Virus record (IMG/VR): IMGVR_UViG_3300049841_000119
Coordinates: 1-41,003 of that record
DNA: 41,003 nt
From: a virus
Direction: 5' to 3' (one strand)
Part shown: in pieces, positions 4,239-40,834 of the stretch
How positions within the stretch are numbered: position 1 is the first letter of the stretch
Layout of the letters: every line of letters begins with the position of its first letter
Made by a program: the position numbers and the translations under genes
The notes under the pieces: model-generated
The model's input: only the letters and a program-made list of their open reading frames with translations
What the model was told of the DNA's origin: nothing
Databases searched by the model: none

Positions 4239-4247
4239 CTCCTCCTC

Positions 4248-8219: not shown

Positions 8220-8222
8220 GGC

Positions 8223-9233: not shown

Positions 9234-9235
9234 GG

Positions 9236-21988: not shown

Positions 21989-22002
21989 TGTTCACCTTCT
22001 GT

Positions 22003-22383
22003 TCAGGGGATCGTCCACGTCCCGGCAGCCTTGAAGTTGCCAGTGATGCGGACGGCATCGGTAACACTGGCCGTCACGGAGGCATCCACGAAGGCGGGCC
22101 CGGAGGCCGTGGCGGGAAGGCCCTCGTCGGCATACAGGGTCACCGTGTATGCCACCCCGTCATTGCTCGATAGGGCGAGATCCCCGTCTACGTCCAGCAA
22201 TCCCGAGAAGGTCCCCGAGATGTCCATGAGCCCGGCGGCGTACACCTTGTTCCTGTCACGGAATGTGGATACGTCGGCGAACTCCCGGGACATGTTCAGG
22301 GTCCACTCGGTCTTGTTGGTCACCTTGGTCCCGTTGATGTAGATGGCCCCGTTCTTGCCGTGGAGCTTCCCGTCCGTCGCCAT
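22003..22383 (-). CDS. Major tail (tube) protein, copy 1
   Basis: The 126-residue paralogue of the following gene, 21 residues shorter because it lacks a GAKGAPG-type insert, an insert near the YAD segment and a C-terminal SSGSLT tail. Shared motifs are KNGAIYINGTKVTNKTEWTL, GTFSGLLDVDGD and VTDAVRITGNFKAAGTW. It lies directly after the tail terminator gene, the usual place of the tube gene, with AGGAGA 5 nt before ATG 22383. A tandem duplication of the tube gene is the best explanation. One copy may form the main tube and the other a specialised ring or a decorated variant. Confidence 0.75.
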   Translation of the reverse strand: MATDGKLHGKNGAIYINGTKVTNKTEWTLNMSREFADVSTFRDRNKVYAAGLMDISGTFSGLLDVDGDLALSSNDGVAYTVTLYADEGLPATASGPAFVDASVTASVTDAVRITGNFKAAGTWTIP

Positions 22384-22392
22384 GGGACTCTC

Positions 22393-22806
22393 CTACGACG
22401 ACTGGTCGGTCCAGATCGAGTACGAACCCCCGATCTGGTAGATGCGCTTCCCCTCGGAGTCGATGTCTGGCCCCGTCGGCAGATCCGCGACCCGGCGGCA
22501 AAGCAGATTGGTCTGCCCATCCACGTTGAGCACAGCCTCGTTGAGTGCCCCGGCGATGAGCGCGTCGATGTTGTTGGCATCGACGGGGTTCTCCGCGTAG
22601 ACCGATACATCGATCAGGGTCTGGATGATCACCCCGGTCCAGTCGTAGGAATACGGGGCCGCGACCAGCTGGTAGACGATGAACGGGTATCGGACCTTGC
22701 GGGGAGCGATCCCCTCGTGAATACCGCCTCTGATGGCGGACACGAGGGAGGGTGAGGCACGGAGTACCTGCACGACCGCTCGCTTGACGGGGGCGACGGA
22801 GGTCAT
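22393..22806 (-). CDS. Tail terminator / tail completion protein
   Basis: The 137-residue protein (APVKRAVVQVLRASPSLVSA...PFIVYQLV, then VIIQTLIDVSVYAENPVDAN and a SYSIWTDQ end) has the pattern of tail terminator proteins (gpU/DUF3168-like): an N-terminal helix, a 'YPfIvy' strand and a long strand followed by a helix with repeated Asn/Asp. It lies between the HK97-gp10-like protein and the tube genes, as expected. It would cap the finished tube and join it to the head. The ATG is at 22806, 13 nt after the previous stop. Family assignment rests on pattern and order. Confidence 0.75.
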   Translation of the reverse strand: MTSVAPVKRAVVQVLRASPSLVSAIRGGIHEGIAPRKVRYPFIVYQLVAAPYSYDWTGVIIQTLIDVSVYAENPVDANNIDALIAGALNEAVLNVDGQTNLLCRRVADLPTGPDIDSEGKRIYQIGGSYSIWTDQSS

Positions 22807-22819
22807 CGGTCGTTCCCCT

Positions 22820-23530
22820 TCACAGCCGCACCACGATCTCGATCTCCGCCCCCGAGGCCCCGGTGCGTCCGGCCTCGGAGACGGCAGCCGCGATCCGGCT
22901 GACGATTTCAGCTCGGCTCTCCGCCGCAGCCGGGCGAAGGAAGGGGTGGGCAGCGTTGTGGCGCGTGCCGAACTCCTGATACTTCGCGTACGGCGTCGGG
23001 GAGATGACCCATGCCTCTGCCCGGTTCCCAGCCATCGTGGCCGGCGTCGCGTGGATCTCGCCCCGCAACCGGCCTCCGACGTTGAGGTGCTGGAAGGTGG
23101 AGAAGTTGGACCGCTTGGAACGGACCTCTGACGCTCCCCTGCGGGTCAGGAAGGTGGCCCGGGGCTCGAAGCCCATCTTCCTTCGGGACATCTCTTGGTC
23201 GTACTCGGCCAAGAGGCGCTGTGCCGCCGCCAGACGACGCTCCCTCCAGTGGACTGGGGGGCGCTTGCCGTGGATCGTCCGGGCGGTCGAGGGATCCTCG
23301 GGCGAGACCACCGTGGGCGGTCCGCCGAACTTGAAGGCGATGTCGCGTGGCCCCCGTGCCTCGCCGATCTCGCTCATCGTCTTGAAGCGGATGTTGTAGC
23401 CGCCGTCGGCGAACAGCCGCCTGACCGGTGCCAGAGACTTGGCCCGGGCGGCAACGATGTTCGCCCCCTCGCCGAGGGCCTGAGCAGCAGCCTCGAAGAT
23501 GGCCTGCCCGATGGCCTCGAGGCTGATCAC
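22820..23530 (-). CDS. HK97 gp10-like neck / tail completion protein
   Basis: The 236-residue protein starts at GTG 23530, overlapping the preceding TGA as GTGA, with a GAGGAAG site upstream; an upstream in-frame ATG at 23569 would lie inside the previous gene. It opens with a helical region (ISLEAIGQAIFEAAAQALGE) and has the characteristic end SPTPYAKYQEFGTRHNAAHP followed by FLRPAAAE. The 'YAxxqEFGT...HPFLRPA' signature is that of HK97 gp10-type proteins, which act at the head-tail junction. The central region (about 95-150) is unusually basic and longer than in most family members. Confidence 0.85.
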   Translation of the reverse strand: MISLEAIGQAIFEAAAQALGEGANIVAARAKSLAPVRRLFADGGYNIRFKTMSEIGEARGPRDIAFKFGGPPTVVSPEDPSTARTIHGKRPPVHWRERRLAAAQRLLAEYDQEMSRRKMGFEPRATFLTRRGASEVRSKRSNFSTFQHLNVGGRLRGEIHATPATMAGNRAEAWVISPTPYAKYQEFGTRHNAAHPFLRPAAAESRAEIVSRIAAAVSEAGRTGASGAEIEIVVRL

Positions 23531-23928
23531 TCCCTCTTCCTCAGGCTGCAGGTCAGGAGCGGCAGCCACGTCGACTCGGCCGTGGTGTCGCTGACGGTGT
23601 AGTCCTCGGCACCGACATGGACATGGTCACCGGGCAGGACATCCGTGCCCACCGGAAGGAAGAGGCGGTAGGTGTTGACCGTGACGATCATCCCCGTGTC
23701 CACCTGCTGGACCGGGGTGGGGGTGGAGTAGAACCAGCCCTTGACCTGCTGGCGGCGGGCCTCGGAGGTGGTGGTGTAGCTCAGGTAGTCGTCCCCGTAG
23801 TCGCCGCCCACCGGGATCGCCGCCTCCGCCCGGCGCTCGATGGTGACCGGGGTGGTCATGCCCAGCAGGGCGATGTCCCTCACCCTGTCCATCTGCTTGG
23901 TGGTGAGGAAGCGCTCCTGCCGGGGCAT
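23527..23928 (-). CDS. Head closure / stopper protein
   Basis: The 133-residue protein has a beta-barrel pattern: VTIERRAEAAIPVG, a strand-rich middle (QVKGWFYSTPTPVQQVDTGM), VGTDVLPGDHVHVGAEDYTV and a short C-terminal strand. The 'lpvgtdi.pgD.v...g..Y.V' motif is typical of head-tail joining proteins of the SPP1 gp16/HK97 gp7 type. The order adaptor, stopper, gp10-like, terminator is preserved around it. It starts at ATG 23928, 1 nt after the adaptor stop, and ends with a GTGA overlap. It likely closes the portal channel after packaging. Confidence 0.75.
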   Translation of the reverse strand: MPRQERFLTTKQMDRVRDIALLGMTTPVTIERRAEAAIPVGGDYGDDYLSYTTTSEARRQQVKGWFYSTPTPVQQVDTGMIVTVNTYRLFLPVGTDVLPGDHVHVGAEDYTVSDTTAESTWLPLLTCSLRKRE

Positions 23929-25341: not shown

Positions 25342-26679
25342 CTAGACCTTGACCCTGATCTTGTTGCTCCACGGCAGCACCTTCACCGCGAGCCCGTTCA
25401 TCATGAAGACGATGTACAGGTGGGTGAGCTGGCCGCTGATGCCGATCGGGATCTCGAGGACCGTGGGGCCCGGGCTCCCGAGGTAGGGCAGCGTGATGCT
25501 GCCCTCGTCGAGGAGGTACAGGTCGCGGTACTCGGTTCCGCCGATGTGGTACGAGGCGATCGAGTCGCCCGGGACCACGGCGAAGGGGATCTGGCCGGCA
25601 TAGGTGTTGATCGTCTGGGCGGTCGCACCGACGCCGATGTTGACGTAGTTGGGACCGACGAGCCGGACCTTGGCGTCCTGCTGCTCGTCGAAGGTGACCT
25701 TCTCCTGCGGGTGGCCCCAGATGATCGACACATTGCCGCCCGCCTGCGTGATGGGCAGGAGAGCCGAGTCGACCTTGTTGCGGAAGGCCCCGCCCGCCCA
25801 AGTGCTGGAGTCGTCACCGTCGAAGGTCGACGGGTCGAGGTTCACGGCATTGGTGGTCAGGAGCTGGCGCAGGCCGGTGAAGGCGTTGGCGTCGTACAGG
25901 CCGTACTCGTCGTCGGCCGTGCCGGAGGCGACCGCGGCGTTGCCGCCGAAGATCGTCTTCTGCATCTTGTGGGACATGGCCCGGAGGCCGCCCTGAAGCT
26001 CGATCGCCTCGGGGTTGTAGTTCATCCCGCCCGCCATGACGGCGAACTGGGACTTCAGGCTGATGCCCCGGCGGGTGGCGAGGATGGCGATGTTGGTGTT
26101 CTTGCGCTCGTAGGTGCTCGTGTCGTCGGACACGGTGCCCAGCTCCGCCATGAACTTGGCATCGCCGTAGGCCGTGATCTGGTTCCACGCGTGCAGCAGG
26201 CCGTTGGCCGGCTCCTTGGGGAACCGGTCGTAGGCCGGGAACATGCGGATGAAGACCTCGTAGAGCATCGGCTCGAGGTCCTGCCTGATCAACGCGGTGG
26301 CCCCGCCAGTGTCGAGGGCCTTGGCGATGTCCGGGTCGAGCTGCCCGCCGAGGTTGTTGAAGGCGTTCTGGGCGGAGAAGCCGGCGGTGTTCAGCCAGAC
26401 GTGGAGCGGGATGCCGCTGTCCTTGACGGCCGCCTGCCGGGTGATCAGCTCGATGATGTGGCTGGTGGACTTGGTGCGGAGGGTCTCGGTGAGAGCCATC
26501 CGCTCGTCCGGGGTGATGTAGCGGCGGGTGGGAGCGGGAGTGCCCTGATCCTCGATCCCCTTGGTCGGGGGAGTCGCGACATTGGGGGCCTCGTTCATCC
26601 GCAGGAGCGTCTTGCCGATCTGCTCCTGCGTCTCGAGGACACCCTTCAGGAGGGCCTCCAGCTCAGGGCTCATGCCCAT
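25342..26679 (-). CDS. Major capsid protein (HK97 fold)
   Basis: The 445-residue protein begins with a helical delta-type region (MSPELEALLKGVLETQEQIG), then a linker with TPAPTRRYITPDE, and the body with GGQLDPDIAKALDTGGATAL, LIRQDLEPMLYEVFIRMFP, SLKSQFAVMAGGMN, YGLYDANAFTGLRQLL, IIWGHPQEKV and a C-terminal strand set. The order matches HK97-fold capsid proteins. It follows the protease gene directly (6-nt gap). The ATG is at 26679 (AAAGGA site); a second ATG lies at 26673. The N-terminal region is probably cleaved by the protease during maturation. Confidence 0.9.
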   Translation of the reverse strand: MGMSPELEALLKGVLETQEQIGKTLLRMNEAPNVATPPTKGIEDQGTPAPTRRYITPDERMALTETLRTKSTSHIIELITRQAAVKDSGIPLHVWLNTAGFSAQNAFNNLGGQLDPDIAKALDTGGATALIRQDLEPMLYEVFIRMFPAYDRFPKEPANGLLHAWNQITAYGDAKFMAELGTVSDDTSTYERKNTNIAILATRRGISLKSQFAVMAGGMNYNPEAIELQGGLRAMSHKMQKTIFGGNAAVASGTADDEYGLYDANAFTGLRQLLTTNAVNLDPSTFDGDDSSTWAGGAFRNKVDSALLPITQAGGNVSIIWGHPQEKVTFDEQQDAKVRLVGPNYVNIGVGATAQTINTYAGQIPFAVVPGDSIASYHIGGTEYRDLYLLDEGSITLPYLGSPGPTVLEIPIGISGQLTHLYIVFMMNGLAVKVLPWSNKIRVKV

Positions 26680-26685
26680 AGCTGG

Positions 26686-27813
26686 TCATCCTTTCTTGAG
26701 GAGGGTGAGGAAGTCGTCGCTGTAGACCGAGCGCAGGCTTTCGAACTTCTCGCTCGCCTCGCGGACGGTGGCGCGACGACCCACGGGGGTAGCGGACAGG
26801 CGAGCCAAGATCTCGGCCGTGCTCGCGAGGACCTTCTCGGTCGCCGCGATGGCCGCGTCCCTCTCGAGGTTGGCGTCGTCCAGAGCCTTCTTGGTGTCGA
26901 TCAGCTCGCGGGTGACCGCCCGGAGAAGGTCGCTGGAGGTTCGCAGGGAAGCCACGACGGTGGGCTCCAAGAGCTGGAGCGCCGGCTCGACTTCCTCGAC
27001 CTCGGGCTCGTCCGTTTCCTCGTTCTCAGGGACGCTCTCGAGAGCTTCCTGCGAGGGCTCACCAGCCGGGGCCTTGCCGCCCCGGTTGCCGGTGTCGATG
27101 GAGATGTTCGCGAAGGGTGTCTCGATGGACACCGTCGCGTCGGTGATGTCGGGCTCGACATCCGCGGAGACGCTCTCGGGCTCGAGGCCCTCGACATCCT
27201 CGGAGGTGATCTCGACCTCTTCGACCTCGGGGGACTCGAGAGAGCCGTCCCCCTCGATGGCGACCTCCTCCCCGAGGTCCGCCTCCTCGAGCTGCCTCTC
27301 GATCCCGTTGAGGGACTTGACGGCGTACTCGACCCACGATCGCGGGTTGGCCGGGACGCCCACGAGGGAGGTCTCGAGGAGGTCGACATGGTCGATCTGG
27401 TAGGCGCCTGACTTCCGGTCTCGGGTTGCTCCGCCGTCGGGGATCATCGCCCCGATGGACAGGCCCAGCTGGGTGCCGTTGTTGATGGCCTCCCACGCCT
27501 TGACCGCCCGCTCGTTGGCGGAGTTGACCACGATGTCGAGGGACAGGTCGTGGATGGAGGGATCGGTCGGGTGGGAGCGGATCGAAGCCCGCTCGACCGA
27601 ACCCGCCACATCCTCGGGAACCCGGTACTCGTGGTTCAGGAAGATCGTCAGGTTGTTGTTGGCGGCCTGCTCCATGTCGGTCAGCGCCGAGGGGCTCATG
27701 GTGTCCCCGTGACGATCCTTGATCGTCGAGCTGGCGATGCCGTGGAGGCGCATCTTGCCGTCGGGGCCCATGCTCGTCTTGAGCATGGGCGCGAAGATCT
27801 TGAAGGTGTTCAC
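26686..27813 (-). CDS. HK97-family prohead protease with scaffold-like C-terminus
   Basis: The 375-residue protein has residues 1-165 typical of the U35 prohead serine proteases: HGIASSTIKDRHGDTMSPSA, FLNHEYRVPEDVAGSVERA (H61), QLGLSIGAM (S119) and HVDLLETSLVGVPANPRSWV (E147 region). Residues about 175-290 are extremely acidic, followed by a helical region (DLLRAVTRELIDTKKALDDA) to the C-terminus, as expected for a fused scaffold. The protease trims scaffold and capsid N-termini inside the prohead. GTG 27813 starts it with GTGA coupling to the upstream glycosyltransferase gene. Confidence 0.9.
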   Translation of the reverse strand: MNTFKIFAPMLKTSMGPDGKMRLHGIASSTIKDRHGDTMSPSALTDMEQAANNNLTIFLNHEYRVPEDVAGSVERASIRSHPTDPSIHDLSLDIVVNSANERAVKAWEAINNGTQLGLSIGAMIPDGGATRDRKSGAYQIDHVDLLETSLVGVPANPRSWVEYAVKSLNGIERQLEEADLGEEVAIEGDGSLESPEVEEVEITSEDVEGLEPESVSADVEPDITDATVSIETPFANISIDTGNRGGKAPAGEPSQEALESVPENEETDEPEVEEVEPALQLLEPTVVASLRTSSDLLRAVTRELIDTKKALDDANLERDAAIAATEKVLASTAEILARLSATPVGRRATVREASEKFESLRSVYSDDFLTLLKKG

Positions 27814-29072
27814 GCGGTTTCCTCCGATGCTTCAGTGGGAGTGGAAGGCTGGAAGCTAGCCAGCGCCACGATCCACTCATCGAACTTCTGGGCCGCGAAA
27901 TCCCAAGAGAAGGTCTTCGCGTGGGCTGCCCCGGCCGCGCCGAGATCCCTTCTCAGCCCCTTGGAGAAGTACAGGCGCTCGACAGCCGAGGTGAAGGCGT
28001 CGATGTCGGGCAGCCAGTTGTCCTCGCCCGCGGGAGTCGTCAGGAGACCCTTGGGCTCGAGGAGGATCCCTCCGGGTCCGACCACCTCGGGGATGGCGGA
28101 CACGCTCTGGGCCACGATGGGGATGCCGCATGTCGCGGCCTCGAGGAGGGTCAGGCCGAAGCCCTCTCCCCGCGAGGTGGAGACGAAGCAGTCGAAAGCT
28201 GAGTAAAGGACATTGAGGTCTTGCAAGGCCCAGCCCTCGAAGCTGCTGTGCAGGCCCGGGAAGTGGAACCTCGTCGGGTCGACCGAGCTGGACTCGCGGG
28301 AGAGCATCGCCTGAAAGCGGATGCCGCTGGTGGCGTTCTCGTCCTCGCAGTGGAAGTGGGTCTCGATGTCCTTGTACTTCTTCATGAGCGGCCAGAGGGC
28401 CTTCACGAGGGCCGGGTAGTCCTTGCGACCGCTGTTGGTGTCGACCCGCCCGACGAGGAAGTTGTCGGGATCGAAGTTGAAGGCCCGCTTGCAGTCCGCC
28501 TTGGTCCGACACACGATCCCGGTGCTGGTGACCTTGGGCTTCTCCTCGATCGGCCAGAAGATCTCCGGGTCGCTGCCGTGGTAGACCATCTCGCTGGGGG
28601 TGTAGGCCGCCTGACCCCACTTGCTCATGGCCACCACATTGGTGACCTTGGGCAGGACCGTGGTCCAGCGGGGAGGCAGGTTGACCCCGTCGTCGGGGAC
28701 ATAGGACAGGATCGGCCGGTAGCGCAGGAGGATGTGCTCGGGGTCGTACTTGTTGTCGAACAGGAAGCGCAGCACGATCTGGGGATCGGACAGGGTCACG
28801 ACGACATCCGGCTCGAACTTGCCCAGCATCTCGATGACCCTCGAGAAGCCGTAGATGTCGGTCATCGAGAAGATGTCCGGGCGGTAGAGACGCAGCGGTG
28901 TCGGGTGGTCGTGCCCGAACCTCTCGCAGGGCCAAGCGTCTCCACGGAAGTTGACGGCGAGGACCCGGACTTCGTGCCCGTAGTCCTCGACGAGACGCTC
29001 GCCGATGCTGTGCGTGACCCGGGAGAAGCCCGTCGTGCAGCCCGCGTCACTGAGCCAAAGGATCTTGCTCAA
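27810..29072 (-). CDS. GT4-family glycosyltransferase
   Basis: The 420-residue protein has an N-terminal Rossmann half (KILWLSDAGCTTGFSRVTHS, then KFEPDVVVTLSDPQ) and a C-terminal half with VGRVDTNSGRKDYPALVKAL, the acceptor-turn LNVLYSAFDCFVSTS and the EGFGLTLLEAATCGIPIVA motif (E-x7-E), the signature of GT-B fold family 4 enzymes. It would transfer a sugar from a nucleotide-sugar donor. The start is TTG 29072, forming TTGA with the preceding stop, with GGGAG 7 nt upstream. It is translationally coupled to the head protease at its other end, so its product is made with the head proteins. The target could be a capsid or tail protein. Confidence 0.88.
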   Translation of the reverse strand: MSKILWLSDAGCTTGFSRVTHSIGERLVEDYGHEVRVLAVNFRGDAWPCERFGHDHPTPLRLYRPDIFSMTDIYGFSRVIEMLGKFEPDVVVTLSDPQIVLRFLFDNKYDPEHILLRYRPILSYVPDDGVNLPPRWTTVLPKVTNVVAMSKWGQAAYTPSEMVYHGSDPEIFWPIEEKPKVTSTGIVCRTKADCKRAFNFDPDNFLVGRVDTNSGRKDYPALVKALWPLMKKYKDIETHFHCEDENATSGIRFQAMLSRESSSVDPTRFHFPGLHSSFEGWALQDLNVLYSAFDCFVSTSRGEGFGLTLLEAATCGIPIVAQSVSAIPEVVGPGGILLEPKGLLTTPAGEDNWLPDIDAFTSAVERLYFSKGLRRDLGAAGAAHAKTFSWDFAAQKFDEWIVALASFQPSTPTEASEETA

Positions 29073-29488: not shown

Positions 29489-29815
29489 CTACTGGCGGCG
29501 GACGGTGATCGTCACCTCGGGGCTGGTGGTCTGCACGCGACCGCCCTGATAAGCAATTTCCCACTGCACGACGTATGTCCCCGGGACCGACAGGTCGTTC
29601 GGCCCCCACGAGTAGCTGACCCGACCCGCGGGGCCATCGAGGACGGTGGCGGAGGCATTCACCTGATAGCGCCGATCGTCTCCGCGGCGCATCTGGAAGC
29701 GCACCCCGCTGACATAGGCGGGTGACAGGTCGATGACCGACGAGATGTCATCTTCCTCGTGGATGATGGCGGTGATGTCCGGGGCCGTATCGCCTTGTAC
29801 GAAGGTCAGTGACAT
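29489..29815 (-). CDS. Small beta-sandwich virion protein (BppU-N-like)
   Basis: The 108-residue protein reads FVQGDTAPDITAIIHEEDD, then VSGVRFQMRRGDDRRY, TVLDGPAGRVSYSWGPNDLS, PGTYVVQWEIAYQGGRVQTT and ends VTITVRR. The order 'qGDtaP / v.F.m / G.v.Y.W...Dl..pGtY..eweV' is the pattern of a small Ig-like or BppU N-terminal-like domain found in many phage baseplate or decoration proteins. It lies between a virion-type protein and the small basic protein, three and eight bases from its neighbours. It probably mediates assembly of a fibre or surface spike. The assignment is by pattern. Confidence 0.7.
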   Translation of the reverse strand: MSLTFVQGDTAPDITAIIHEEDDISSVIDLSPAYVSGVRFQMRRGDDRRYQVNASATVLDGPAGRVSYSWGPNDLSVPGTYVVQWEIAYQGGRVQTTSPEVTITVRRQ

Positions 29816-30467: not shown

Positions 30468-30668
30468 TCATAGGCTCAACGAGGTCCTCCCGGTGAAGAA
30501 GAACCAGACGGCCGCGATCAGGCCGAACACCCAGCACCACTGCTCGAGGAAGTTCCCGACGGAGGTAGCGATGGGCACCTTGATGGCGACGAGGACGATC
30601 CCGATCAGGAGGATCACCAAGGCCGTGACGATCCCGACACAGGCCGCCAAGATCACGCGCTGCAACAT
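30468..30668 (-). CDS. Two-TM small membrane protein
   Basis: The 66-residue protein has two hydrophobic helices (about residues 5-29 and 43-60) joined by a short loop (KVPIATSVGNFLEQ), with a short polar tail (TGRTSLSL). ATG 30668 is preferred because GAGG lies 7 nt upstream; GTG 30674, which forms GTGA with the fibre stop, has only 1 nt spacing. Two-TM proteins of this size include holins, antiholins and membrane-remodelling factors. It is far from the three-TM holin-like gene at 659-976, so a second lysis protein or an unrelated membrane function are both possible. Confidence 0.65.
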   Translation of the reverse strand: MLQRVILAACVGIVTALVILLIGIVLVAIKVPIATSVGNFLEQWCWVFGLIAAVWFFFTGRTSLSL

Positions 30669-30670
30669 GT

Positions 30671-33600
30671 TCACACCTCGATGACGGCGTCGAGGGTGCA
30701 GGCCCCGGCCACCCATGCTCCCGCGACAAACGGCGCTCGCCGCACGAAGAGCCAAGTGAAGTCGATGGTCGCGGCGCTCACTGTCGAGGCGAGGGTAGCG
30801 GCCGAGTTCGTGGCATCCAGAGTTCCCGCCGCGAACGATCCGGAGATCGTCGCTGCCGAGAAGGTGGCCTCGATCTCCTGAACGATGTGCAGGCTGATCG
30901 AGGCGTCCACCCCGAGGGTGCCGCCGATGGTCGAGAGAAGGATGGCGTCGGCGACAAATGCGACCGATGCCGAGGAGTTGATCGCGGCCTCGACCGCGAA
31001 GGAACCGGTTGGGATCGAGCTGACCGAGGCGTCGGCGCCGAAGGAGCCGGTAGAGACGATCGAGAGGACCGCCCCGGCCCCGATGGAGCCCGACTGCTCC
31101 CGCAGCAGGGTTGCCTCGAGGGTGAACGCCCCTCCCGCCGTGGCGAGGGTGATCTGGGCGTCGGAGGTGAAGGAGGCTTGTCGGGGGGACAGAAGGACGG
31201 CATTGGCTGCGAACCCGACCATTCGGGTGGCCGCGATGACCGACTGGGCACCGAAGCCTGCCTGAGCAACCGTCTTCAGCAGTGCGTCGGCCGGGAATGA
31301 GCCCGCGCTGGTCCCGATGACGACTGCGCCTGCGCTGATGGTAGCAGACGCTGTACGCCTGACAATGGCCTCGGCCGAGAATGCCCCGACACCCGTTCCG
31401 TAGATCCACGCCGAGACGCCGATGACGCCCGTCTGGGAAGCGACAACGACCGCCCCGGCATCGAAGGTTGTCGCCTGCGTCGCGAGCGATACCGCGTCGA
31501 CCGTCAGGGTCCCCGCCCCGGCGGTGGGGGAGATGATCCAAGCGTCGAGCGTCTGGACGCCGGTTCCCGTGGCGAGGACAATGGCCTCGGTCGTCAGGCT
31601 AGCCGCACTTCCCTCGCGGAGAAGGACGGCGTCGACTACCGCAGGCGATGCAATCGTCCGCCTGACGACCGCATCCACAGCAAGGGAGGACGAGATGGGG
31701 CTCAGGACAAGGCTGTCGGCGCTGAAGAATGTCTGGCGCTGGCGCTGGATGACGGCATCCGATGTGAAGGCGGAGGAGCCCGTCGCCAGCACCACCGCGC
31801 CGGCCGCGAACATTCCGGTCGCGGTGGCCGAGATGACGGCGGCGCTGGAGAAGTCGTCGTTCGATGTGGAGCGAATGACCGCAGCCGCCCCGAAGGTGGC
31901 CCCGGAGGTCCCCAGCACCACCGCGCCGATGACCGTGGAGCCGCCGACCGCAGCCAAGATCACCGCGTCGGCCGAGGTCGCCCCGGCAGTCAGGCGGGTC
32001 AGGACGGAGTCGGTCCCGAAGGCTCCCGTGGCCCCCCGGACCAAGACGGCCTCGAGGCGGAAGTCGAAGTAGTACGGGCCAGCGATCCACGCCTCGGCCT
32101 CGAGGTGACCGTAGGCTCCCGCGAGGACGAAGGCGTCGACCGGGAAGCGCCCGGCCAGCCAAGCACCGACCTCGAAGATCCCCGAGATCCATGCCCCTGC
32201 CGTGAAGCTCGAGGGGATCGTCGCGAAGACGACGGCGTCGGCAACCGTCGAGGCCACGCCGACCTGCGCTAGGATCGCGTCGGTCGTCAGGCTGTCCGTG
32301 GAGCCCCGGAGAACGACGGCATTGGCGGTGCAGCTCCCGCCGATCGCCTGCCTGACGACCCCATCCACCCCGAAGGAGCCAGCCAGCGGGGCGGCGATGA
32401 CGGCGTTCGCCGCGAACGAGGCCCCCAGATGACCTAGGACGGCCGCATCGAGGGCCCACGGCGTCCGGGTCAGGGTGGCCTTGATGACGGCCTCCGCGAC
32501 CGCCGTAGCGCCTCGTGGGGCCAGCAGGATTGCATCGGCGGAGTAGCCACTCTCGATCGGCAGTCCGATGACCGCTTCCGCCCCGAAGGAATTGCCCGAG
32601 GAGCCGATGATGACCGAGTCGACCAAGGGGCCGGGGCCATCCACGACCAGCAGCGTCCAGACGACCGCGTCGCCCTCGTAGGTCACGGGATCGCCGCCGT
32701 AGGTCACGACATACTGATCGGCAGACCCAAAGATCCACGTCTTGAGCCGGATGGCGTCGGCCGTCGCGCTCGACGCTGACGATTTCGTGACGATTGCGTC
32801 GGCGGTGAACGATCCGGGGATGGTGGTGATGCCCGAGACGAGGACCGCGTCGAGCGTCGGACCGGGGAAGTCGACGACTTCGCCCGACAGGTTGTTCAGG
32901 TCCCAGACGATGGGCTGGTAGAGGCTTCCGGTGTAGTTGTAGTCACCGAGGAGGATGCTTCCGGACACCGCCTCGTAGTTGGTTCGGCTTCCAATGGGCG
33001 GCAGGATGGTCGGCGGATCGGTGGGGTTGAGCAGGTCCCAGATGACGGCGTGAGTCTGGGGGTCGTTGGCTTGGCCGTAGATCGTGTTTCCGACAATGCC
33101 GTAGGCATACGAGTGGGTCTCGTTGGCGATGGCACCAAGGATGGTTGGGGGATCAGTTGGGTTGGCTAGGTCCCAGATGACGACGTGAAACTGAGTGTCT
33201 TGGGCCATGCCACAGATCGTGTCGCCGACAATGCCGTAGGCATACGAGTGGGTCTCGTTGGCGATAGCGCCAAGGATGGTCGGGGGGTTGGTGGGATTGA
33301 GCAGGTCCCAGATGACGGCGTGGCCTTGGGTGTCGTCGGCATAGCCACAGATCGTGTTTCCGACAATGCCGTAGGCATACGAGTAGGTCTCGTTGGCGAT
33401 GGCACCAAGGATTGTCGGGGGGTTGGTGGGATTGAGCAGGTCCCAGATGACGGCGTGAGTCTGGGGGTCGTTGGCTTGGCCGTAGATCGTGTCGCCGACG
33501 ATGCCGGAGGCAACCGAGTAGTTCTCGTTGGCGATGGCACCAAGGATGATCGCTGGGTCCGTGGGGTTGAGCAGATCCCAGATGACCGCGTGGCCCCGGG

Positions 33601-34810
33601 CGTCGTTGGCTTGGCCGTAGATCGTGTCGCCGACGATGCCGGAGGCAACCGAGACGGTCTCGTTGGCGATGGCACCGAGGATGGTAGGAGGATCGGTGGG
33701 ATTGAGCAGGTCCCAGATGACTGCATGCTGCTGGGTGTCGTTGGCTTGGCCGTAGATCGTGTTGCCCGCAATGCCAGAGGCCCACGAGTAGGTCTCGTTG
33801 GCGATCTGGCCAAGCAGGACGGGATCTGCCGTCGGATCGGTCAGGTCCCAGAGCGCGGCGCGCTCGACCGACCAGTCGTCGTCTGCCACCTCACCAACGG
33901 CATGGGTGCCATCGGTGCCGTAGGTGTAGCCCTCGGCCATGCCCGAACCGAATGGCAGCAGGGTGTACTGCATCTTGCCGAACACCCACGTCCGCAACTG
34001 GATGGCATCGGCGGAGAAGAACCCCTCGGTCGGGGCGAGGATGAGGGCGTCGAGCGAGAACGAGGACTCCGGCGACGCGGAGATGACGGCGTCCAGCGAC
34101 CATGGAGTCTGCCCGGGGGTAGCCAGCAGGACGGCGCTGACGGAGAACGAGCCCGCCTGCGCCCGCTTCAGGACCGCATCGATGGTCCTGCCCGCGGGGA
34201 CCAGCGTGGTCTTGATGACGGCGGCAGCGGCGAATGAGCCGGACTGGGTGATCTTGATGGTCGCCGCAGCGGTGAAGGCCCCCGTCTGCTCACGCTTGAC
34301 GATTGCGTCGGCAGAGAGCGAACCTAGACCAGTCGAGCGGATGATGGCCGCGGCGGAGAAGGTCGGGGCCAGCGTCTTCCGCAGGGTCGCATTCGCCGCG
34401 AAGGTGGGCTCGAAGGTGCGCCGCAGGATGGCTGCGGCGGCGAACGACTTCGTGCCCGAGCTGGCGAGAATGACCGCATCGAGGGTCTTGGGAGTCGGGG
34501 TGATCGCGGCGAAGATGACGGCGTCGGCCTTCAGGCCCGCGACCGGCGCGACGGTGGCCTTGAGGACCGCATCCGCGGTGAAGGTCTGCGCCGCACCCGA
34601 GATCGTCTTCTTCAGGACCGCATCGGCCTTGGGCTGGGTCCCGGGGACCATCCCCGAACGGAAGATGACGGCATCCGCCGCAAACGAAGCCCCCGCAACG
34701 GGCATCGTCCGCTTGATGACCGCGGACGCGCTGAAGCTGCCCTCGACAGGCAGAGAGCCTGCGAGGGCGGCGGCTGCCTCTACTGGCTGGTAGAGCCAGA
34801 AGGCAGACAT
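30671..34810 (-). CDS. Giant ADAVI-repeat fibre with an internal HAF-type beta-propeller
   Basis: The 1379-residue protein consists mainly of about 65 units of 15-18 residues with the consensus xGSFxADAV(I/L)xxxx (for example GASFAADAVIFRS, QTFTADAVLKATV, GSFGADASV). At about residues 280-650 a different region intervenes: eight WDL motifs, seven of them in near-perfect 45-residue units (HAVIWDLLNPTDPPTILGAI, then ANET.S.A.GIVG.TIYGQAND), a HAF-type repeat that should fold as a 7- or 8-bladed beta-propeller. The repeats probably form a rigid beta shaft and the propeller a binding head. The ATG is at 34810, 4 nt after the previous stop; the C-terminus ends TLDAVIEV. The receptor-binding role is inferred. 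Confidence 0.75.
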   Translation of the reverse strand: MSAFWLYQPVEAAAALAGSLPVEGSFSASAVIKRTMPVAGASFAADAVIFRSGMVPGTQPKADAVLKKTISGAAQTFTADAVLKATVAPVAGLKADAVIFAAITPTPKTLDAVILASSGTKSFAAAAILRRTFEPTFAANATLRKTLAPTFSAAAIIRSTGLGSLSADAIVKREQTGAFTAAATIKITQSGSFAAAAVIKTTLVPAGRTIDAVLKRAQAGSFSVSAVLLATPGQTPWSLDAVISASPESSFSLDALILAPTEGFFSADAIQLRTWVFGKMQYTLLPFGSGMAEGYTYGTDGTHAVGEVADDDWSVERAALWDLTDPTADPVLLGQIANETYSWASGIAGNTIYGQANDTQQHAVIWDLLNPTDPPTILGAIANETVSVASGIVGDTIYGQANDARGHAVIWDLLNPTDPAIILGAIANENYSVASGIVGDTIYGQANDPQTHAVIWDLLNPTNPPTILGAIANETYSYAYGIVGNTICGYADDTQGHAVIWDLLNPTNPPTILGAIANETHSYAYGIVGDTICGMAQDTQFHVVIWDLANPTDPPTILGAIANETHSYAYGIVGNTIYGQANDPQTHAVIWDLLNPTDPPTILPPIGSRTNYEAVSGSILLGDYNYTGSLYQPIVWDLNNLSGEVVDFPGPTLDAVLVSGITTIPGSFTADAIVTKSSASSATADAIRLKTWIFGSADQYVVTYGGDPVTYEGDAVVWTLLVVDGPGPLVDSVIIGSSGNSFGAEAVIGLPIESGYSADAILLAPRGATAVAEAVIKATLTRTPWALDAAVLGHLGASFAANAVIAAPLAGSFGVDGVVRQAIGGSCTANAVVLRGSTDSLTTDAILAQVGVASTVADAVVFATIPSSFTAGAWISGIFEVGAWLAGRFPVDAFVLAGAYGHLEAEAWIAGPYYFDFRLEAVLVRGATGAFGTDSVLTRLTAGATSADAVILAAVGGSTVIGAVVLGTSGATFGAAAVIRSTSNDDFSSAAVISATATGMFAAGAVVLATGSSAFTSDAVIQRQRQTFFSADSLVLSPISSSLAVDAVVRRTIASPAVVDAVLLREGSAASLTTEAIVLATGTGVQTLDAWIISPTAGAGTLTVDAVSLATQATTFDAGAVVVASQTGVIGVSAWIYGTGVGAFSAEAIVRRTASATISAGAVVIGTSAGSFPADALLKTVAQAGFGAQSVIAATRMVGFAANAVLLSPRQASFTSDAQITLATAGGAFTLEATLLREQSGSIGAGAVLSIVSTGSFGADASVSSIPTGSFAVEAAINSSASVAFVADAILLSTIGGTLGVDASISLHIVQEIEATFSAATISGSFAAGTLDATNSAATLASTVSAATIDFTWLFVRRAPFVAGAWVAGACTLDAVIEV
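32985..33850 (-). repeat. 135-bp tandem DNA repeats encoding propeller blades
   Basis: A landmark, gttggcgat, occurs at 33122, 33257, 33392, 33527, 33662 and 33797, exactly 135 bp apart. Neighbouring units are nearly identical over most of their length, so this is a recent tandem amplification at DNA level. Each unit encodes 45 residues with one WDL motif. Units differ mostly at positions before HAVIWDL (DTQQ, DARG, DPQT, DTQG, DTQF) and in SxA(S/Y)G. Confidence 0.95.
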
Positions 34811-36096: not shown

Positions 36097-36169
36097 GGCC
36101 ATTGCATTGGCCCCTTCCGACGCCCCATTGCATTGGGGCGGCTATTTTCCCTCGGGACTATCCCCCGAG
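36097..36169 (-). other. Three further tandem stem-loops in the intergenic region
   Basis: Hairpin A, 36097-36112: ggcca / tggcc with loop ttgcat. Hairpin B, 36121-36140: cgcccca / tggggcg with the same loop ttgcat. Hairpin C, 36151-36169: ctcggg / cccgag, overlapping the stop codon of the upstream gene (36158-36160). A and B share 11 bases (cattgcattgg). None is followed by a convincing T-run. A transcript-processing site, an attenuator or a protein-binding RNA element is possible. No promoter consensus was recognised in the gap. Confidence 0.55.
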
Positions 36170-36577
36170 CATCCTGCCGGCGATGGTCTCCACATCGTCT
36201 GCCCCACAGACTACCCCGTTGGGCAAGAGCCAGAGGTCCACCGTCGTCCCGTCGGCCTTCTTCTTCCCGATCCCGACTGCCGTGATCTCGCTGCCGAGCA
36301 TGAGATTGCCGATGTGGCGGCGGCGGAAGTAGGGCTGGTCGCCGGGCTCGACGATGAGGCCGAAGATGACCCTCCCCGATCCCTTGTGGTACAGCCACCA
36401 TGCGCCCGGGGCCCGCATGGCCTCCCTGTTGTGCTCGATCCAGCCGGGCTCGTCGAGGTCGATCCCGATGTTGCCGGCGCTCGTCCGCTCCTCGGGCTCG
36501 ATGACGAGGTAGAAGGGGAAGTCGCCCTGCCAGCCGCTGTTCTGGACCTCGATGGCGCTGCTCTCTATGACTTCCAT
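36158..36577 (-). CDS. Unknown protein at the end of the glycan island
   Basis: The 139-residue protein starts at ATG 36577, overlapping the upstream glycosyltransferase by 13 nt, with GAGG 5-9 nt upstream. It has strand-rich sequence (DFPFYLVIEPEERTSAGNIG, then GAWWLYHKGSGRVIFGLIVE, then GIGKKKADGTTVDLWLLPNG) and no membrane segment or catalytic motif. The GAWWLYHK segment and tight coupling suggest a role connected to the glycosyltransferase or to a virion domain, but no family is recognised. The stop codon is inside a stem-loop. Confidence 0.6.
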   Translation of the reverse strand: MEVIESSAIEVQNSGWQGDFPFYLVIEPEERTSAGNIGIDLDEPGWIEHNREAMRAPGAWWLYHKGSGRVIFGLIVEPGDQPYFRRRHIGNLMLGSEITAVGIGKKKADGTTVDLWLLPNGVVCGADDVETIAGRMLGG

Positions 36578-37452
36578 CCCAGCCTCGCCAGAGCTTCGTC
36601 GCGGCTCAGGATCTCCTCCCCGATGCTGCCGAGGAGGGCCGCCCGGAACTTGGACGCTTCCGGGTCGCGAAAGGCGATCTCGCGCAGGAATGTCTCCTCG
36701 GTGATGATTTGATCTCCGATGTGCCCCACCTTTACCGAGGTGTCCACGAAGATCCTGCATCCGGCCTCTTTCGCCTCCTTGCAGAACAGAAAGTCCTCGC
36801 CGAGGATGCCCTCCCAGCGGAAGAAGGGGATCGGCGTCTGGCCCTTGCGTTCCTCGTCCGAGGGGAAGGGGATACCGAGGCGATGCTGCATGATCCGGTC
36901 GAAGACGCGGCGGTGGATGAGGCAGAACGCCATGCCAGTGGCGTCCACCTCGACGGCGGAGTCCGCCGGCCAGCGCTCGATGAATGTGTATCCCTTCCGG
37001 TCCAGCTCGGTTGGTGCCGCGAACCTGTACATCGTCGGCTGGTAGGGATCGCCGCGCTGGAAGCAAAGGCCGCCGACGATGTCGAGGTCGAACTTGGCCT
37101 GCGTCTCGATGAGGACCCGCATCGCCTCCGGCTGCCAGACCATGTCGGAGTCGATGAACAGGATCCAGTCGCCCCGCATGTCGTTGATGCACTGGTTGCG
37201 CTGGAACGTGAGGATGTTGCCCTGCACGATGTAGCGCTTGTGGAACTGGCCCGGCTTCAGCCAAGTGAGGTCGGTCATGAGCCACGAGATCGCCGTCTGG
37301 GCGGCGACCTTGTCGCGGGTCACCATCGCGACCGTGCCCATGCACTCGCTGAACTGGACGGGGTTGTCGTGAACCTCGAGCACATTCATCTCGAGGCCGT
37401 CGACGATCCCGGCCCGCCGCGAACGGCGGGCCTTAGGCTTGGCCTCCGCCAT
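36565..37452 (-). CDS. GT-A glycosyltransferase (family 2-like)
   Basis: The 295-residue protein starts at ATG 37452, 2 nt after the Ig-like gene stop. A short basic N-terminus (KPKARRSRRAGI) leads to the GT-A fold: NILTFQRNQCINDMRGDWIL, FIDSDMVWQPEAMRVLIET (DxD motif S-D-M, about 96-105), DIVGGLCFQRGDPYQPTMYR and LGEDFLFCKEAKEAG (ED motif, about 214-221), where the metal and nucleotide-sugar donor and catalytic base are expected. This type is common in phages. Its acceptor is unknown; neighbouring virion-type proteins are candidates. Confidence 0.85.
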   Translation of the reverse strand: MAEAKPKARRSRRAGIVDGLEMNVLEVHDNPVQFSECMGTVAMVTRDKVAAQTAISWLMTDLTWLKPGQFHKRYIVQGNILTFQRNQCINDMRGDWILFIDSDMVWQPEAMRVLIETQAKFDLDIVGGLCFQRGDPYQPTMYRFAAPTELDRKGYTFIERWPADSAVEVDATGMAFCLIHRRVFDRIMQHRLGIPFPSDEERKGQTPIPFFRWEGILGEDFLFCKEAKEAGCRIFVDTSVKVGHIGDQIITEETFLREIAFRDPEASKFRAALLGSIGEEILSRDEALARLGWKS

Positions 37453-37454
37453 GG

Positions 37455-37793
37455 TCAGGCGACGACGACGGTGGCGGGGTCGGAGACGGACGACTCGTTG
37501 TCGGGGTCGGTCACGTCGTAGAGCTGGACGGTGTAGGTCCCGGTCTCCGGGAAGATGTAGTCGTTGAACTGGAAGTCCCCGTCGGGGGTGGTCCCGAAGA
37601 CCTGCGACTGGCCGACCACGTTGCCGCCGACCGTCATCCGCAGAACATAGCGGAACTCGGGGCTGGTGGGGTAGGCGTTGCCGTCGAAGCTGCCGGTGTC
37701 GTTGGTCTCGGTGTTCTCGATGTCGAAGCGGCAGACCGTGCTCTTGGCGGTGATGCTGCCCGACGCGGGGGTGACGGTGATCGAGGCGGCCAT
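37455..37793 (-). CDS. Small Ig-like virion protein
   Basis: The 112-residue protein begins MAASITVTPASGSITAKSTV, continues with EFRYVLRMTVGGNVVGQSQV, DFQFNDYIFPETGTYTVQLY and ends SSVSDPATVVV. The seven-strand pattern with 'G-x-Y-T-V-x-L-Y' is that of an Ig-like (Big2/FN3-type) domain. GGAGG lies 5 nt before ATG 37793. Such domains decorate capsid and tail proteins. Lying between two glycosyltransferase genes, it could be the glycan acceptor, but that is inference. Confidence 0.7.
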   Translation of the reverse strand: MAASITVTPASGSITAKSTVCRFDIENTETNDTGSFDGNAYPTSPEFRYVLRMTVGGNVVGQSQVFGTTPDGDFQFNDYIFPETGTYTVQLYDVTDPDNESSVSDPATVVVA

Positions 37794-37810
37794 TGGATCC
37801 TCCGTGGTTG

Positions 37811-38668
37811 CTACAGCCAGTCGCTCGTGGTGACGACTGCTTCGGGACGATACGGGATGACGATGTCTCCGGTAAACAGCTTCGACAGCTCGTCGCTGAA
37901 CCGCCGCACGGGGCAGTTCCGGCACTGCAGGAACCGGACCCCGTTGACGAAGCTCTCACTGAAATCGTGGTGAAGCTGACCGCAACCGTTGGTGAGAGGC
38001 TCCAGCCACGGTGCCCGGGATCGCGTGTCACCCTCCTTCAGCTCGATCGGATGCCAAGAGAACGGCGGCTCGTGGATCATGACCTTGGTCTCGTGGGCCA
38101 TCCTCATGAGCCGGTAGCCGAGCTGCTGGTCCTCGCTCCCGTGGCGTCCGTTGAAGGCCATGTCGAAGGCCCCCACCTCGCGCAGGAAGCCGGTCCGGGC
38201 CACCAGCATGCCCCCGTAGCAGGAGTAGTAGCCGTGCATCGCCGGGGGCACCGGGTTCTCGCGGCTCCTGCCGGTGTCGCGGTGCGACAGGCGGATCTCC
38301 TCGAAGGTCATCTGCGAAAAGTCGAGGAGGCGGTGATTGCCCCAGATGTAATCCTTGTCACCCAAGGTCCACAGGGAGTCCTCGACCATCGTCGGGGGAG
38401 CGATCTGGTCGTCACCTTGGATGATCACGATCTCGGCCTCGGCCGCGAAGATGCCCACATTCTGGCGCAGGGCCACATCGAAGTCCCCCACCCCGTACTC
38501 CTCCGAGGTGAAGCGCAGGAGCCTCGTCCGGGTGGCCGCCTCGAAGGGCAGGATCTCGTTGGAGACCACCGTGATCGTGTCCGGGGAGACGGTCTGCAGG
38601 GACAGGCTGCGGACCAGCATCTCGACCTGCCTCGGGCGAAGACCCGGGATGACGACCTCGACGCCCAT
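37811..38668 (-). CDS. GT-A glycosyltransferase with C-terminal GT2/galactosyltransferase motif
   Basis: The 285-residue protein starts at ATG 38668, overlapping the preceding stop by one base (TGATG); an extension to 39259 is a shadow. GVEVVIPGLRPRQVEMLVRS opens the nucleotide-binding half, EIVIIQGDDQIAPPTMVEDS carries the DDQ metal motif (about 77-88), and FNGRHGSEDQQLGYRLMRMA (about 172-185) is the GT2/GT27-like 'ED' catalytic segment. The C-terminal part has CRNCPVRRF, a possible metal or disulfide pair. It is one of three GT-A enzymes in the island. Confidence 0.85.
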   Translation of the reverse strand: MGVEVVIPGLRPRQVEMLVRSLSLQTVSPDTITVVSNEILPFEAATRTRLLRFTSEEYGVGDFDVALRQNVGIFAAEAEIVIIQGDDQIAPPTMVEDSLWTLGDKDYIWGNHRLLDFSQMTFEEIRLSHRDTGRSRENPVPPAMHGYYSCYGGMLVARTGFLREVGAFDMAFNGRHGSEDQQLGYRLMRMAHETKVMIHEPPFSWHPIELKEGDTRSRAPWLEPLTNGCGQLHHDFSESFVNGVRFLQCRNCPVRRFSDELSKLFTGDIVIPYRPEAVVTTSDWL

Positions 38669-39456
38669 CAGAAGGGTCTCGTGGTGTAGTCCCAGACCGG
38701 CGCCGGCAGGCCCTCCTCGTCGTCCTCCTGACCTGTCCTGCGGACGATCATGTCCCTGTCGTTGTAGTACGCCCGCTGGGCGAGGATCTGCTCCTGCGAG
38801 CGGAACAGGCAGCGGTGCTCGACCTTGTAGGCCGACCGGATCGCCCTCTGGGGGAGATGCGGCCAGTCCGGCCCGTGGCCGCTGTTGTGGATCCACGAAC
38901 GCTGGCCGCCCTTGACCCCGCTGTACTCCCAGTGGTTCCGGTCGACCCTGATCCCGGGCAGGGCCCGGTAGATCTGGGGCAGGTTGACGGTGACATTGGC
39001 CTGCTGGGTGTGCCAGTTGGTGGCCGAGACCTCCGCGAGGGAACGGCCCTCCGGGGCGGGAGTCACGAAGGGGACGGTGAGCGAGTCCTCCTCGGTGATC
39101 TCCAGCTCCCTCCGTACGGCTGCCCGGCTGAAGGCCGAGATGACATGGTCGGTGTCGACGACGATGATCCAGTCGCTCTCGTAGGCGGCCATCGCCATGC
39201 AGTAGGAGCGCTTCTCCACCGCGCCCTTCCACAGGCGATCGGGCTGCAGGATGAGGCACTCGAGCCCGACCTCCGCCGCCGCATCCCGGATCGCGGCCAC
39301 CTCGGCGTCGGAGCTTCGAGGCGTGGCCCCGGGGTAGCGCCGGTAGGCCCCGTCGAGGGCCACGAAGCGATCAGCCACGCTGGCCGCTCCACGCACGCAG
39401 GCGTCGAGGTCCTCGGGCTTCTCGTTCCACCAGCACAGCGCCGCCGTGACGATCAC
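38668..39456 (-). CDS. GT-A-like glycosyltransferase
   Basis: The 262-residue protein starts at GTG 39456 with GTGA coupling to the epimerase stop and a GAGAGG site upstream; GTG 39471 is an alternative. ALCWWNEKPEDLDACVRGAA, SVADRFVALDGAYRRYPGAT and DWIIVVDTDHVISAFSRAAV (DxD, about 95-105) form the front of a GT-A fold. The C-terminal half has RDHWEY-like and GHGPDWPHLPQRAIR segments and a Tyr/Arg-rich end. It looks like a GT2-type enzyme whose acceptor is unknown. It lies in the island with NDP-sugar genes. Confidence 0.75.
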   Translation of the reverse strand: MIVTAALCWWNEKPEDLDACVRGAASVADRFVALDGAYRRYPGATPRSSDAEVAAIRDAAAEVGLECLILQPDRLWKGAVEKRSYCMAMAAYESDWIIVVDTDHVISAFSRAAVRRELEITEEDSLTVPFVTPAPEGRSLAEVSATNWHTQQANVTVNLPQIYRALPGIRVDRNHWEYSGVKGGQRSWIHNSGHGPDWPHLPQRAIRSAYKVEHRCLFRSQEQILAQRAYYNDRDMIVRRTGQEDDEEGLPAPVWDYTTRPF

Positions 39457-40334
39457 AGGAACCTCTCGCACACTCGGACCACACCCTCATCGATCGAGAC
39501 CCGGGGCTCGACTCCCAGAAGGTCGGACTGCTTGCTCAGGGCCGGCCACTTCCTGAGGGTCATCCGGGACGGCTGCTCCACCACCTTCACGAGGTCGGGC
39601 GAAGCCCCGAGTCGCTCGCGGATCCTCTCCGCCAGATCCTCGGTCTCGATCAGGTCGGGATGACCGATGTTCACCACCTCGTAGCTCGTGAGGTACATCA
39701 TCCTCTCGAGGGCCCGCACCGCGTCGCTGACATGCAGCCACGACCGGGACGATCCGGCGTGGACCTCGATCGACCTGCCGCGAGAGAGGCGCTCGGCGAA
39801 GCGGATCATGGCGCTTCGGTGGTCGCCGAGGGTCTCGTTCTCGTCGTAGATCATGAACGGCCGAACGGTCGACGCCCAGAGGTTGTGCTCGCGGACCTCG
39901 TACTCGACGAGCTGCTCACCGAGGTACTTGGTCAGCCCGTAGCGGTTGTTGGGACAGGGAACGCTGTCATCCTCGTCCATGATCCCCTCCATCGGGCCGT
40001 AGACCTCGGAGGTCGAGAAGAAGACGAGGCGGGCACCGACCCTCTTGGTCAGGGCGATCACATTGTTGGTCCCGGCGAGGTTGGTGGCGACGGCGAGGGA
40101 GCCAGCCTGTTCGCAGGTCACCCGGGAGACCACGGCTGCCATCAGGTACACGACCTCTGGCTCCCAGTCGAACGCCTCGAGCAGGTCGATGGGATAGTTG
40201 ATGTCGGCCATCGAGTAGTGATCACGGTGGCCGGGCTTGATGTCGGTGGTGTAGACCTCGTGCCCGACCTCGCGCAGGTAGCGGACCAAGGGTCCCCCGA
40301 CGTTGCCCTCCGAGCCGATGGCGAGGATCTTCAC
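39453..40334 (-). CDS. NAD-dependent epimerase/dehydratase (extended SDR)
   Basis: The 293-residue protein starts at GTG 40334 (GTGA with the methyltransferase stop); ILAIGSEGNVGGPLVRYLRE has the GxxGxxG NAD-binding motif, VFFSTSEVYGPM has the active-site Ser (about 105-112) and NRYGLTKYLGEQLVEYEVRE has YxxxK (about 131-140). These define extended SDRs that epimerise, dehydrate or reduce NDP-sugars. The C-terminal region with WLHVSDAVRALERM and EVVNIGHPDLIETEDLAERI is the usual substrate lobe. It likely makes a modified NDP-sugar for the glycosyltransferases next to it. Confidence 0.9.
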   Translation of the reverse strand: MKILAIGSEGNVGGPLVRYLREVGHEVYTTDIKPGHRDHYSMADINYPIDLLEAFDWEPEVVYLMAAVVSRVTCEQAGSLAVATNLAGTNNVIALTKRVGARLVFFSTSEVYGPMEGIMDEDDSVPCPNNRYGLTKYLGEQLVEYEVREHNLWASTVRPFMIYDENETLGDHRSAMIRFAERLSRGRSIEVHAGSSRSWLHVSDAVRALERMMYLTSYEVVNIGHPDLIETEDLAERIRERLGASPDLVKVVEQPSRMTLRKWPALSKQSDLLGVEPRVSIDEGVVRVCERFL

Positions 40335-40834
40335 GACCGGCGCAGGATGGCGAGTCCCCACGGGCTCGAGTGGACGGTCTCGAGGCGGTAAACGCCGTTG
40401 CTCGCGGCGAATTCGTCGACGGCACGCGAGACATCCCTGCCCACCCTCGTGTCGAGGTAGTCGTGCAGGGCGATCACATCGGGCGTCAGGGTCGAGGCCC
40501 GCTCCAGCTCGAGGACCGTCTGGTCGTACTCGTGGCTGGAGTCGATCATCACGAAGTCGGCATGGCGGGGGAGGTCGACCTTGACCGAGTCGCCGACGAC
40601 GAAGTGCCAGCGCGGGTCGTTCGAGACCCGCTCGGGGATCGGACAGTTCTCGGCGATGTCCACCCCGTAGAGGACCCCGTCAGGTGGCAGGCCGTCGAGG
40701 ATGGCCCACGAGGAGACCGCCCCCCTGACGCCGAACTCGACCGCGACCTTGGCCTGCGAGGCGTACTCGGTGAGGTGGCGCAGGTGGGGAACCATGTCCA
40801 CCCAGCCCCGGGCGTAGGTCTCAAGGTCCATCAC
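40331..40834 (-). CDS. SAM-dependent methyltransferase (Methyltransf_24-like)
   Basis: The 167-residue protein has VAVEFGVRGAVSSWAILDGL (motif I, about 28-48), VLYGVDIAENCPIPERV, a GDSVKVDLP strand and DFVMIDSSHEYDQTVLELER followed by LTPDVIALHDY, the cephalosporin-hydroxylase/Methyltransf_24 pattern. It would methylate a sugar or other small group using SAM. The start is GTG 40834 or ATG 40831, both behind AAGGGG. The stop forms GTGA with the epimerase start. Methyl sugars are common in such islands, but the substrate is unknown. Confidence 0.8.
   Translation of the reverse strand: MMDLETYARGWVDMVPHLRHLTEYASQAKVAVEFGVRGAVSSWAILDGLPPDGVLYGVDIAENCPIPERVSNDPRWHFVVGDSVKVDLPRHADFVMIDSSHEYDQTVLELERASTLTPDVIALHDYLDTRVGRDVSRAVDEFAASNGVYRLETVHSSPWGLAILRRS

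Follow-up and report, generated by a model that had tools for sequence, protein, structure and literature searches.

A candidate phage adhesion fibre with a shaft of 14-residue repeats and a propeller-like insert

The stretch of DNA analysed here (the window) comprises the 41,003 bases of IMGVR_UViG_3300049841_000119, a viral record in the IMG/VR database, and it has the gene content of a long-tailed phage. Our subject is one large gene within it, whose product, hereafter the fibre protein, is a shaft of short repeated units interrupted by two inserts (Table 1). A preliminary description of this DNA had proposed a repeat shaft bearing a separate inserted domain. Our analysis supports that outline, places the gene in a phage structural gene cluster and changes several of the particulars.

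Table 1. Features of the fibre protein and of its surroundings in the window (ORF, open reading frame; aa, amino acids; Ig, immunoglobulin)
Feature	Position	Strand	Remarks
Fibre gene, 14-residue shaft units and two inserts	30671-34810	-	1379 aa; ATG start; orthologues at the matching position in the gene order
N-terminal shaft, residues 24-276	33983-34741	-	17 units, from the unit list
Insert 1, propeller-like domain, residues 277-648	32867-33982	-	entry after unit ...DAIQLRTWV, exit before PGPTLDAV
Eight 45-residue WDL repeats (putative blades)	32879-33958	-	135-bp tandem repeat at 33003-33805
Short shaft segment between inserts, residues 649-693	32732-32866	-	from the unit list
Insert 2, residues 694-725 (32 aa)	32636-32731	-	entry DAIRLKTWIFG, exit DGPGP; sequence type as in insert 1
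C-terminal shaft, residues 726-1310, without inserts	30881-32635	-	part aligning to relatives
C-terminal cap, residues 1311-1379, conserved	30674-30880	-	9-residue repeats (EATFSAATI...) and two last shaft-like strands
Ig-like protein, BppU_N type	29489-29815	-	in relatives the next structural gene after the shaft
GT4-type glycosyltransferase, conserved neighbour	27810-29072	-	
Prohead protease, downstream of fibre	26686-27813	-	
Major capsid protein, downstream of fibre	25342-26679	-	
Two further glycosyltransferase ORFs, upstream of shaft	36565-39259	-	conserved in L043, L046 and L050
Tail completion and tail tube genes	21545-23569		
Paralogue in tail-tip cluster	4248-8219	-	looser shaft units, other inserts, cysteine-peptidase-like C-terminal region

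Shaft units were counted with a position-specific matrix, for which 14 shaft proteins served as the training set; it finds 823 units with the consensus G-S-F-T-A-D-A-V-I-L-R-T-Q-S; the Ala at position 7 is 95% conserved. The fibre protein contains 63 of these units (consensus GSFTADAVILRTQS), close to the "about 65" of the preliminary description. The period of 15-18 residues given there has to be revised, as units usually follow one another at 14 residues (44 of 62 spacings), with 13 spacings of 15, 16 or 17 residues and 2 of 10. Hydrophobic residues alternate within the unit (F3, A5, A7, I9), and the strict five-residue core occurs 75 times in the fibre protein, whereas 500 shuffles gave 22.6 on average and never more than 34. 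Arrays in relatives can be longer and more regular: the 89 units of L047 are spaced by 14 residues throughout (88 spacings), and L057 has 98 units. The same short repeats flank the inserted sequence on both sides, as had been described.

No match to the shaft was found in Pfam, NCBIfam or the PDB sequences; a shaft profile matched no PDB chain by sequence, and PDB sequence searches with profiles of the blade, the Ig-like protein and the peptidase-like region of the paralogue also returned nothing. The shaft C-terminus had no match in 84,980 prokaryote genomes. Among 50,697 phage records there were no relatives of the shaft, the propeller or the paralogue, in a search whose low-complexity filter may hide repeats. 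We found no description of the 14-residue shaft repeat in the literature. Because the curated libraries searched do not contain the family, environmental phage fibres of this type are now annotated as unknown, and the unit consensus provides a way to find them.

Relatives were obtained by scanning IMG/VR with the fibre protein, the capsid protein, the shaft C-terminus and the Ig-like protein; individual loci are given L numbers. The shaft proteins range from 371 to 2460 amino acids, some being cut by contig ends. The gene order glycosyltransferases, shaft, Ig-like protein, GT4 glycosyltransferase, prohead protease, capsid persists in relatives whose capsid identity is as low as 58%, and the IMG/VR relatives make up one syntenic family. 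Within this block the shaft is the least conserved gene, mostly 32-40% identical, whereas the GT4 protein is 52-85% and, in most relatives, the Ig-like protein 50-79% identical. Conservation of the shaft is itself graded towards the C-terminus: the best local alignments to L004, L005, L006, L021, L043, L044, L046, L057 and L061 cover the C-terminal half of the fibre protein and reach, or nearly reach, its end. Insertions and deletions among the aligned relatives mostly span one or two units. A 9-residue repeat (xATxSAATI) at residues 1311-1358 (30737-30880, minus strand) forms a conserved C-terminal cap in many relatives.

Inserts lie towards the other end. Across the shaft proteins, 15 of 21 internal inserts are centred in the N-terminal half and none lies beyond 0.62 of the length, and several further shaft proteins have non-shaft N-terminal stretches of 220-530 amino acids. 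What is inserted differs from relative to relative. The inserts of L061 match Laminin_G_3 twice (120.6 and 59.9 bits, cutoff 27.6), L004 and L043 have a closely similar "VTVTTLQDGG" module, the inserts of other relatives have no Pfam match, and L047, L048 and L057 have none. A 42-residue "insert" in L004 (residues 1005-1046) was set aside, as it looks like degenerate shaft units and not like a domain. The putative propeller of the fibre protein is thus one of several unrelated domains that members of this conserved shaft family bear N-terminally.

Two observations on the relatives stand apart from this pattern. At L021 (3197-5739) the shaft locus consists of two overlapping shaft ORFs, the second of which seems to start VSTFDPGVFD; similar motifs occur within an insert of L046 and N-terminally in the L049 paralogue. 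When the 84,980 prokaryote genomes were scanned with the capsid protein, a single locus came up, L056 (PNKK01000002.1), 41% identical and lying on a contig of an Anaerolinea metagenome-assembled genome, with no shaft ORF within 10 kb; this capsid relative is a weak hint of Chloroflexota hosts.

Insert 1 had been placed at about residues 280-650. A distinct insert does lie there, and we have corrected its boundaries to 277-648. It contains exactly eight WDL motifs, the number first reported, at residues 321, 366, 411, 456, 501, 546, 591 and 636, with a constant spacing of 45. In the DNA this appears as a 135-bp tandem repeat of 5.9 copies with 84% matches. Repeats 2-7, which are 73-89% identical as DNA, seem to have arisen by recent tandem amplification; repeats 1 and 8, only 41-48% identical to the others, appear to be old. 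Insert 2 was absent from the preliminary description. The unit that precedes each of the two inserts of the fibre protein, and one insert of L046, ends in DAI(Q/R)L(R/K)T(W/M)(V/I)FG, and the exits of these inserts read PGPT(L/I)DAV in two of the three and PGPLVDSV in the third; these shared entry and exit sequences suggest common junctions.

The label "HAF-type" given earlier to insert 1 is not supported. The HAF repeat profile (TIGR02913, cutoff 22.65 bits) had no match in the window even at E<=10, with a HAF protein in L053 scoring 194 bits as positive control. WD40 (PF00400) gave no profile match at E<=10, and the LVIVD repeat (PF08309) no Pfam match at E<=1. Weak similarities do exist: tblastn matched insert 1 to a HAF protein, an LVIVD protein and plasmid WD40 proteins, and a blade profile matched LVIVD repeats in a profile-profile comparison (Prob 30%, E 5e-4; reversed control, E 0.5). 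A Foldseek search with a low-confidence model of the insert (predicted local distance difference test score, pLDDT, 37; TM-scores about 0.2) gave propeller proteins as the matches listed. From this modelling and these similarities we consider an eight-bladed beta-propeller likely. We think it quite unlikely that the WDL array is some other 45-residue beta repeat, an open solenoid and not a closed propeller; such an array would fit the very low confidence of the model and the failure of the HAF and WD40 profiles, but it sits poorly with eight regular repeats carrying a WD motif and with the tblastn and profile similarities, weak as they are, to LVIVD, HAF and WD40 proteins, for which the reversed-sequence control was negative.

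The combination of this propeller with the shaft, which the preliminary description had suggested seeking in metagenomic phages, was not found in IMG/VR. A propeller query returned nothing there, and a degenerate DNA pattern for the WD motif gave single matches, 18 in all; no shaft protein and no array of 45-residue repeats was among them. As the propeller was seen in no other phage, its distribution permits no inference about its function.

To approach the fold of the shaft we used a monomer model of 15 units built from 24 aligned sequences. It gives every unit a single strand of about 10 residues and superposes on the cores of SufB and SufD (Z 14-16, 211/214 residues, root-mean-square deviation 3.0-3.5), at a pLDDT of 53. 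We propose that the shaft would be a beta-solenoid in which each 14-residue unit supplies a strand of some 10 residues plus a 4-residue turn. It would probably be a flattened beta-helix in which two units complete one turn; at about 4.8 Å per turn, a shaft of 63 units would be about 15 nm long. Ten arrays were tested for a two-unit superperiod, which is present in L047 and L048, less clear in L045 and L070, and absent from the other arrays, so that it is not general. The main structural competitor is a trimeric fibrous shaft, a triple beta-spiral or triple-stranded beta-helix with the 14-residue unit as one layer and three propellers around the axis, as in the receptor-binding protein (RBP) of phage phi11. 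As a triple spiral the shaft would be far longer than as a solenoid, perhaps around 80 nm. The known phage propeller fibre is indeed a homotrimer (PMC4901313), and near-constant short repeats, alternating hydrophobic residues (F3, A5, A7, I9) and single-unit indels fit one unit per layer. We nevertheless consider the trimer unlikely, given that the monomer model, albeit at low confidence, yields a solenoid that superposes on SufB/SufD and that the shaft profile has no sequence match to any PDB chain.

The end by which the fibre would be held is suggested by L068, where one ORF (3960-8303) continues from the shaft into a C-terminal Pfam BppU_N domain (27.2 bits, gathering score 23.1). The fused domain is 54% identical to the Ig-like protein of the window. 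Because of this fusion and of the conserved shaft C-terminus, we propose C-terminal attachment through a BppU_N-type Ig adaptor. The C-terminus would probably be the anchored end and the N-terminus the distal one, a polarity that would reverse the usual one of tail fibres.

Where on the particle such a fibre might sit is less clear from the gene order. The gene directly precedes the protease and capsid genes, away from the tail-tip cluster with its separate shaft paralogue (4248-8219), and relatives keep this order, as would suit a head fibre or capsid decoration that holds the particle on cell surfaces or particles and is not the main receptor-binding protein. We judge this rather unlikely, because the linked Ig domain belongs to the BppU_N family, known from siphophage baseplates, and because gene order alone does not fix location. 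Highly improbable, in our estimation, is a non-virion role, in which the phage would make an adhesin that the infected cell displays on its surface or secretes: sugar-modifying genes adjoin the fibre gene and there is a small hydrophobic ORF at 30468-30668, but the N-terminus has no obvious signal peptide by eye, the gene is embedded among head and tail genes, and a relative fuses a baseplate-type Ig protein to the shaft.

Taking these results together, we lean modestly towards a virion adhesion fibre of a long-tailed phage, with a beta-solenoid shaft, a C-terminal anchor and exchangeable N-terminal domains. The C-terminal half with its 9-residue-repeat cap would be the proximal end, attached to the particle via the neighbouring BppU_N-like Ig protein, and the N-terminal half would be distal and bear the exchangeable domains, here the putative eight-bladed propeller and in relatives laminin-G/concanavalin A-like and other domains, which probably bind host surface glycans or proteins. 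More tentatively, and as a possibility that we would place somewhat short of an even chance, the relatives may represent a new phage fibre family. Its shaft would be a single-chain beta-solenoid of alike 14-residue units, C-terminally anchored by an Ig adaptor of BppU_N type; in its N-terminal half, folded domains of unrelated kinds (propeller, laminin-G lectins, others) would be set between units and could be exchanged for host contact, with polarity reversed relative to canonical tail fibres.

Several results weigh against the adhesion-fibre reading. The shaft model is weak (pLDDT 53, predicted TM-score 0.41), and Foldseek found no match for it at E<=0.001 in PDB or BFVD; the single-sequence monomer model of insert 1 is weaker still (pLDDT 37). 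The models fold monomers alone, so a trimeric shaft remains compatible with them. The two-unit superperiod is missing from the fibre protein, L004, L043, L057 and L061, and single-unit indels would flip a solenoid with two strands per turn. The Ig-like protein of the window gives no direct Pfam BppU_N match, and the IMG/VR searches place the propeller in no other phage.

If the adhesion-fibre reading is true, a uniform shaft takes different folded domains between its repeats and the variable end is the N-terminus. Uncultivated phages may then renew their host contacts by exchange of domains and not by point change, and the regular 14-residue scaffold would be of interest for protein design.

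The surroundings of the gene offer some further observations. A sugar gene cluster (36158-40834, minus strand) lies just upstream, with glycosyltransferases, a nucleoside diphosphate-sugar short-chain dehydrogenase/reductase and a methyltransferase-like gene, so that the Ser/Thr-rich shaft is bracketed by this cluster and by the GT4 gene (27810-29072); in L047 and L048 a glycosyltransferase-like gene also precedes the shaft. It is a guess that the neighbouring transferases might glycosylate Ser/Thr-rich shaft units. The ORF at 30468-30668 (minus strand, 66 amino acids from an internal ATG) directly follows the fibre stop codon and probably encodes a membrane protein. Two major-tail-protein paralogues stand side by side at 21545-21988 and 22003-22383 (minus strand), and a 2874-residue ORF at 11923-20547 is taken, by size and position, as the tape measure. 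The tail-tip paralogue carries RVTQIAVEAVI repeats and several inserts; its L049 orthologue is on the minus strand at 5355-9293. The C-termini of the two are 67% identical (DDCW ... LHQIGV), and this region, which had no match in Pfam or PDB, resembles a cysteine peptidase or a peptidoglycan hydrolase.

Among known systems, the triple beta-spiral shafts of adenovirus and reovirus show that short 15-residue repeats of one strand-turn type can form a fibre shaft; here the repeat is 14 residues and the monomer model suggests a solenoid. The best structural superposition of that model is the flattened beta-helix of SufB/SufD, which has the two strands per turn proposed for the shaft but is a cytosolic Fe-S scaffold of nine turns and no fibre, so that at a pLDDT of 53 the likeness is a lead. 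Insert 1 resembles LVIVD, HAF and WD40 propellers in its repeat of about 40-45 residues and its WD/DVSNP-like motif, with weak matches to all three, while no family profile reaches threshold in the window. It had been said earlier that no characterised fibre of this design is known; this holds in part, but the RBPs of Staphylococcus phages phi11 (Gp45) and 80alpha (gp61), of stem-platform-tower build, are likewise adhesion proteins with a mid-chain beta-propeller, placed between the stem and a C-terminal tower domain (PMC4901313, PMC7048315). Those RBPs are homotrimers with five blades and an alpha-helical coiled-coil stem, whereas the fibre protein has eight 45-residue repeats in a continuous beta-rich shaft of 14-residue repeats, with no sequence relation found; eight repeats inside a beta-rich shaft do not fit the five-bladed propeller after a coiled-coil stem of the phi11 type. 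Phage propeller fibres were thus already known. The shaft family with its exchangeable inserts is of more interest than the single protein. Finally, the Ig-like partner of the shaft probably belongs, via the L068 fusion, to the family of the TP901-1 BppU N-terminal domain (PF10651), which in TP901-1 is N-terminal and here either follows the shaft at its C-terminal end or stands as a small protein of its own.

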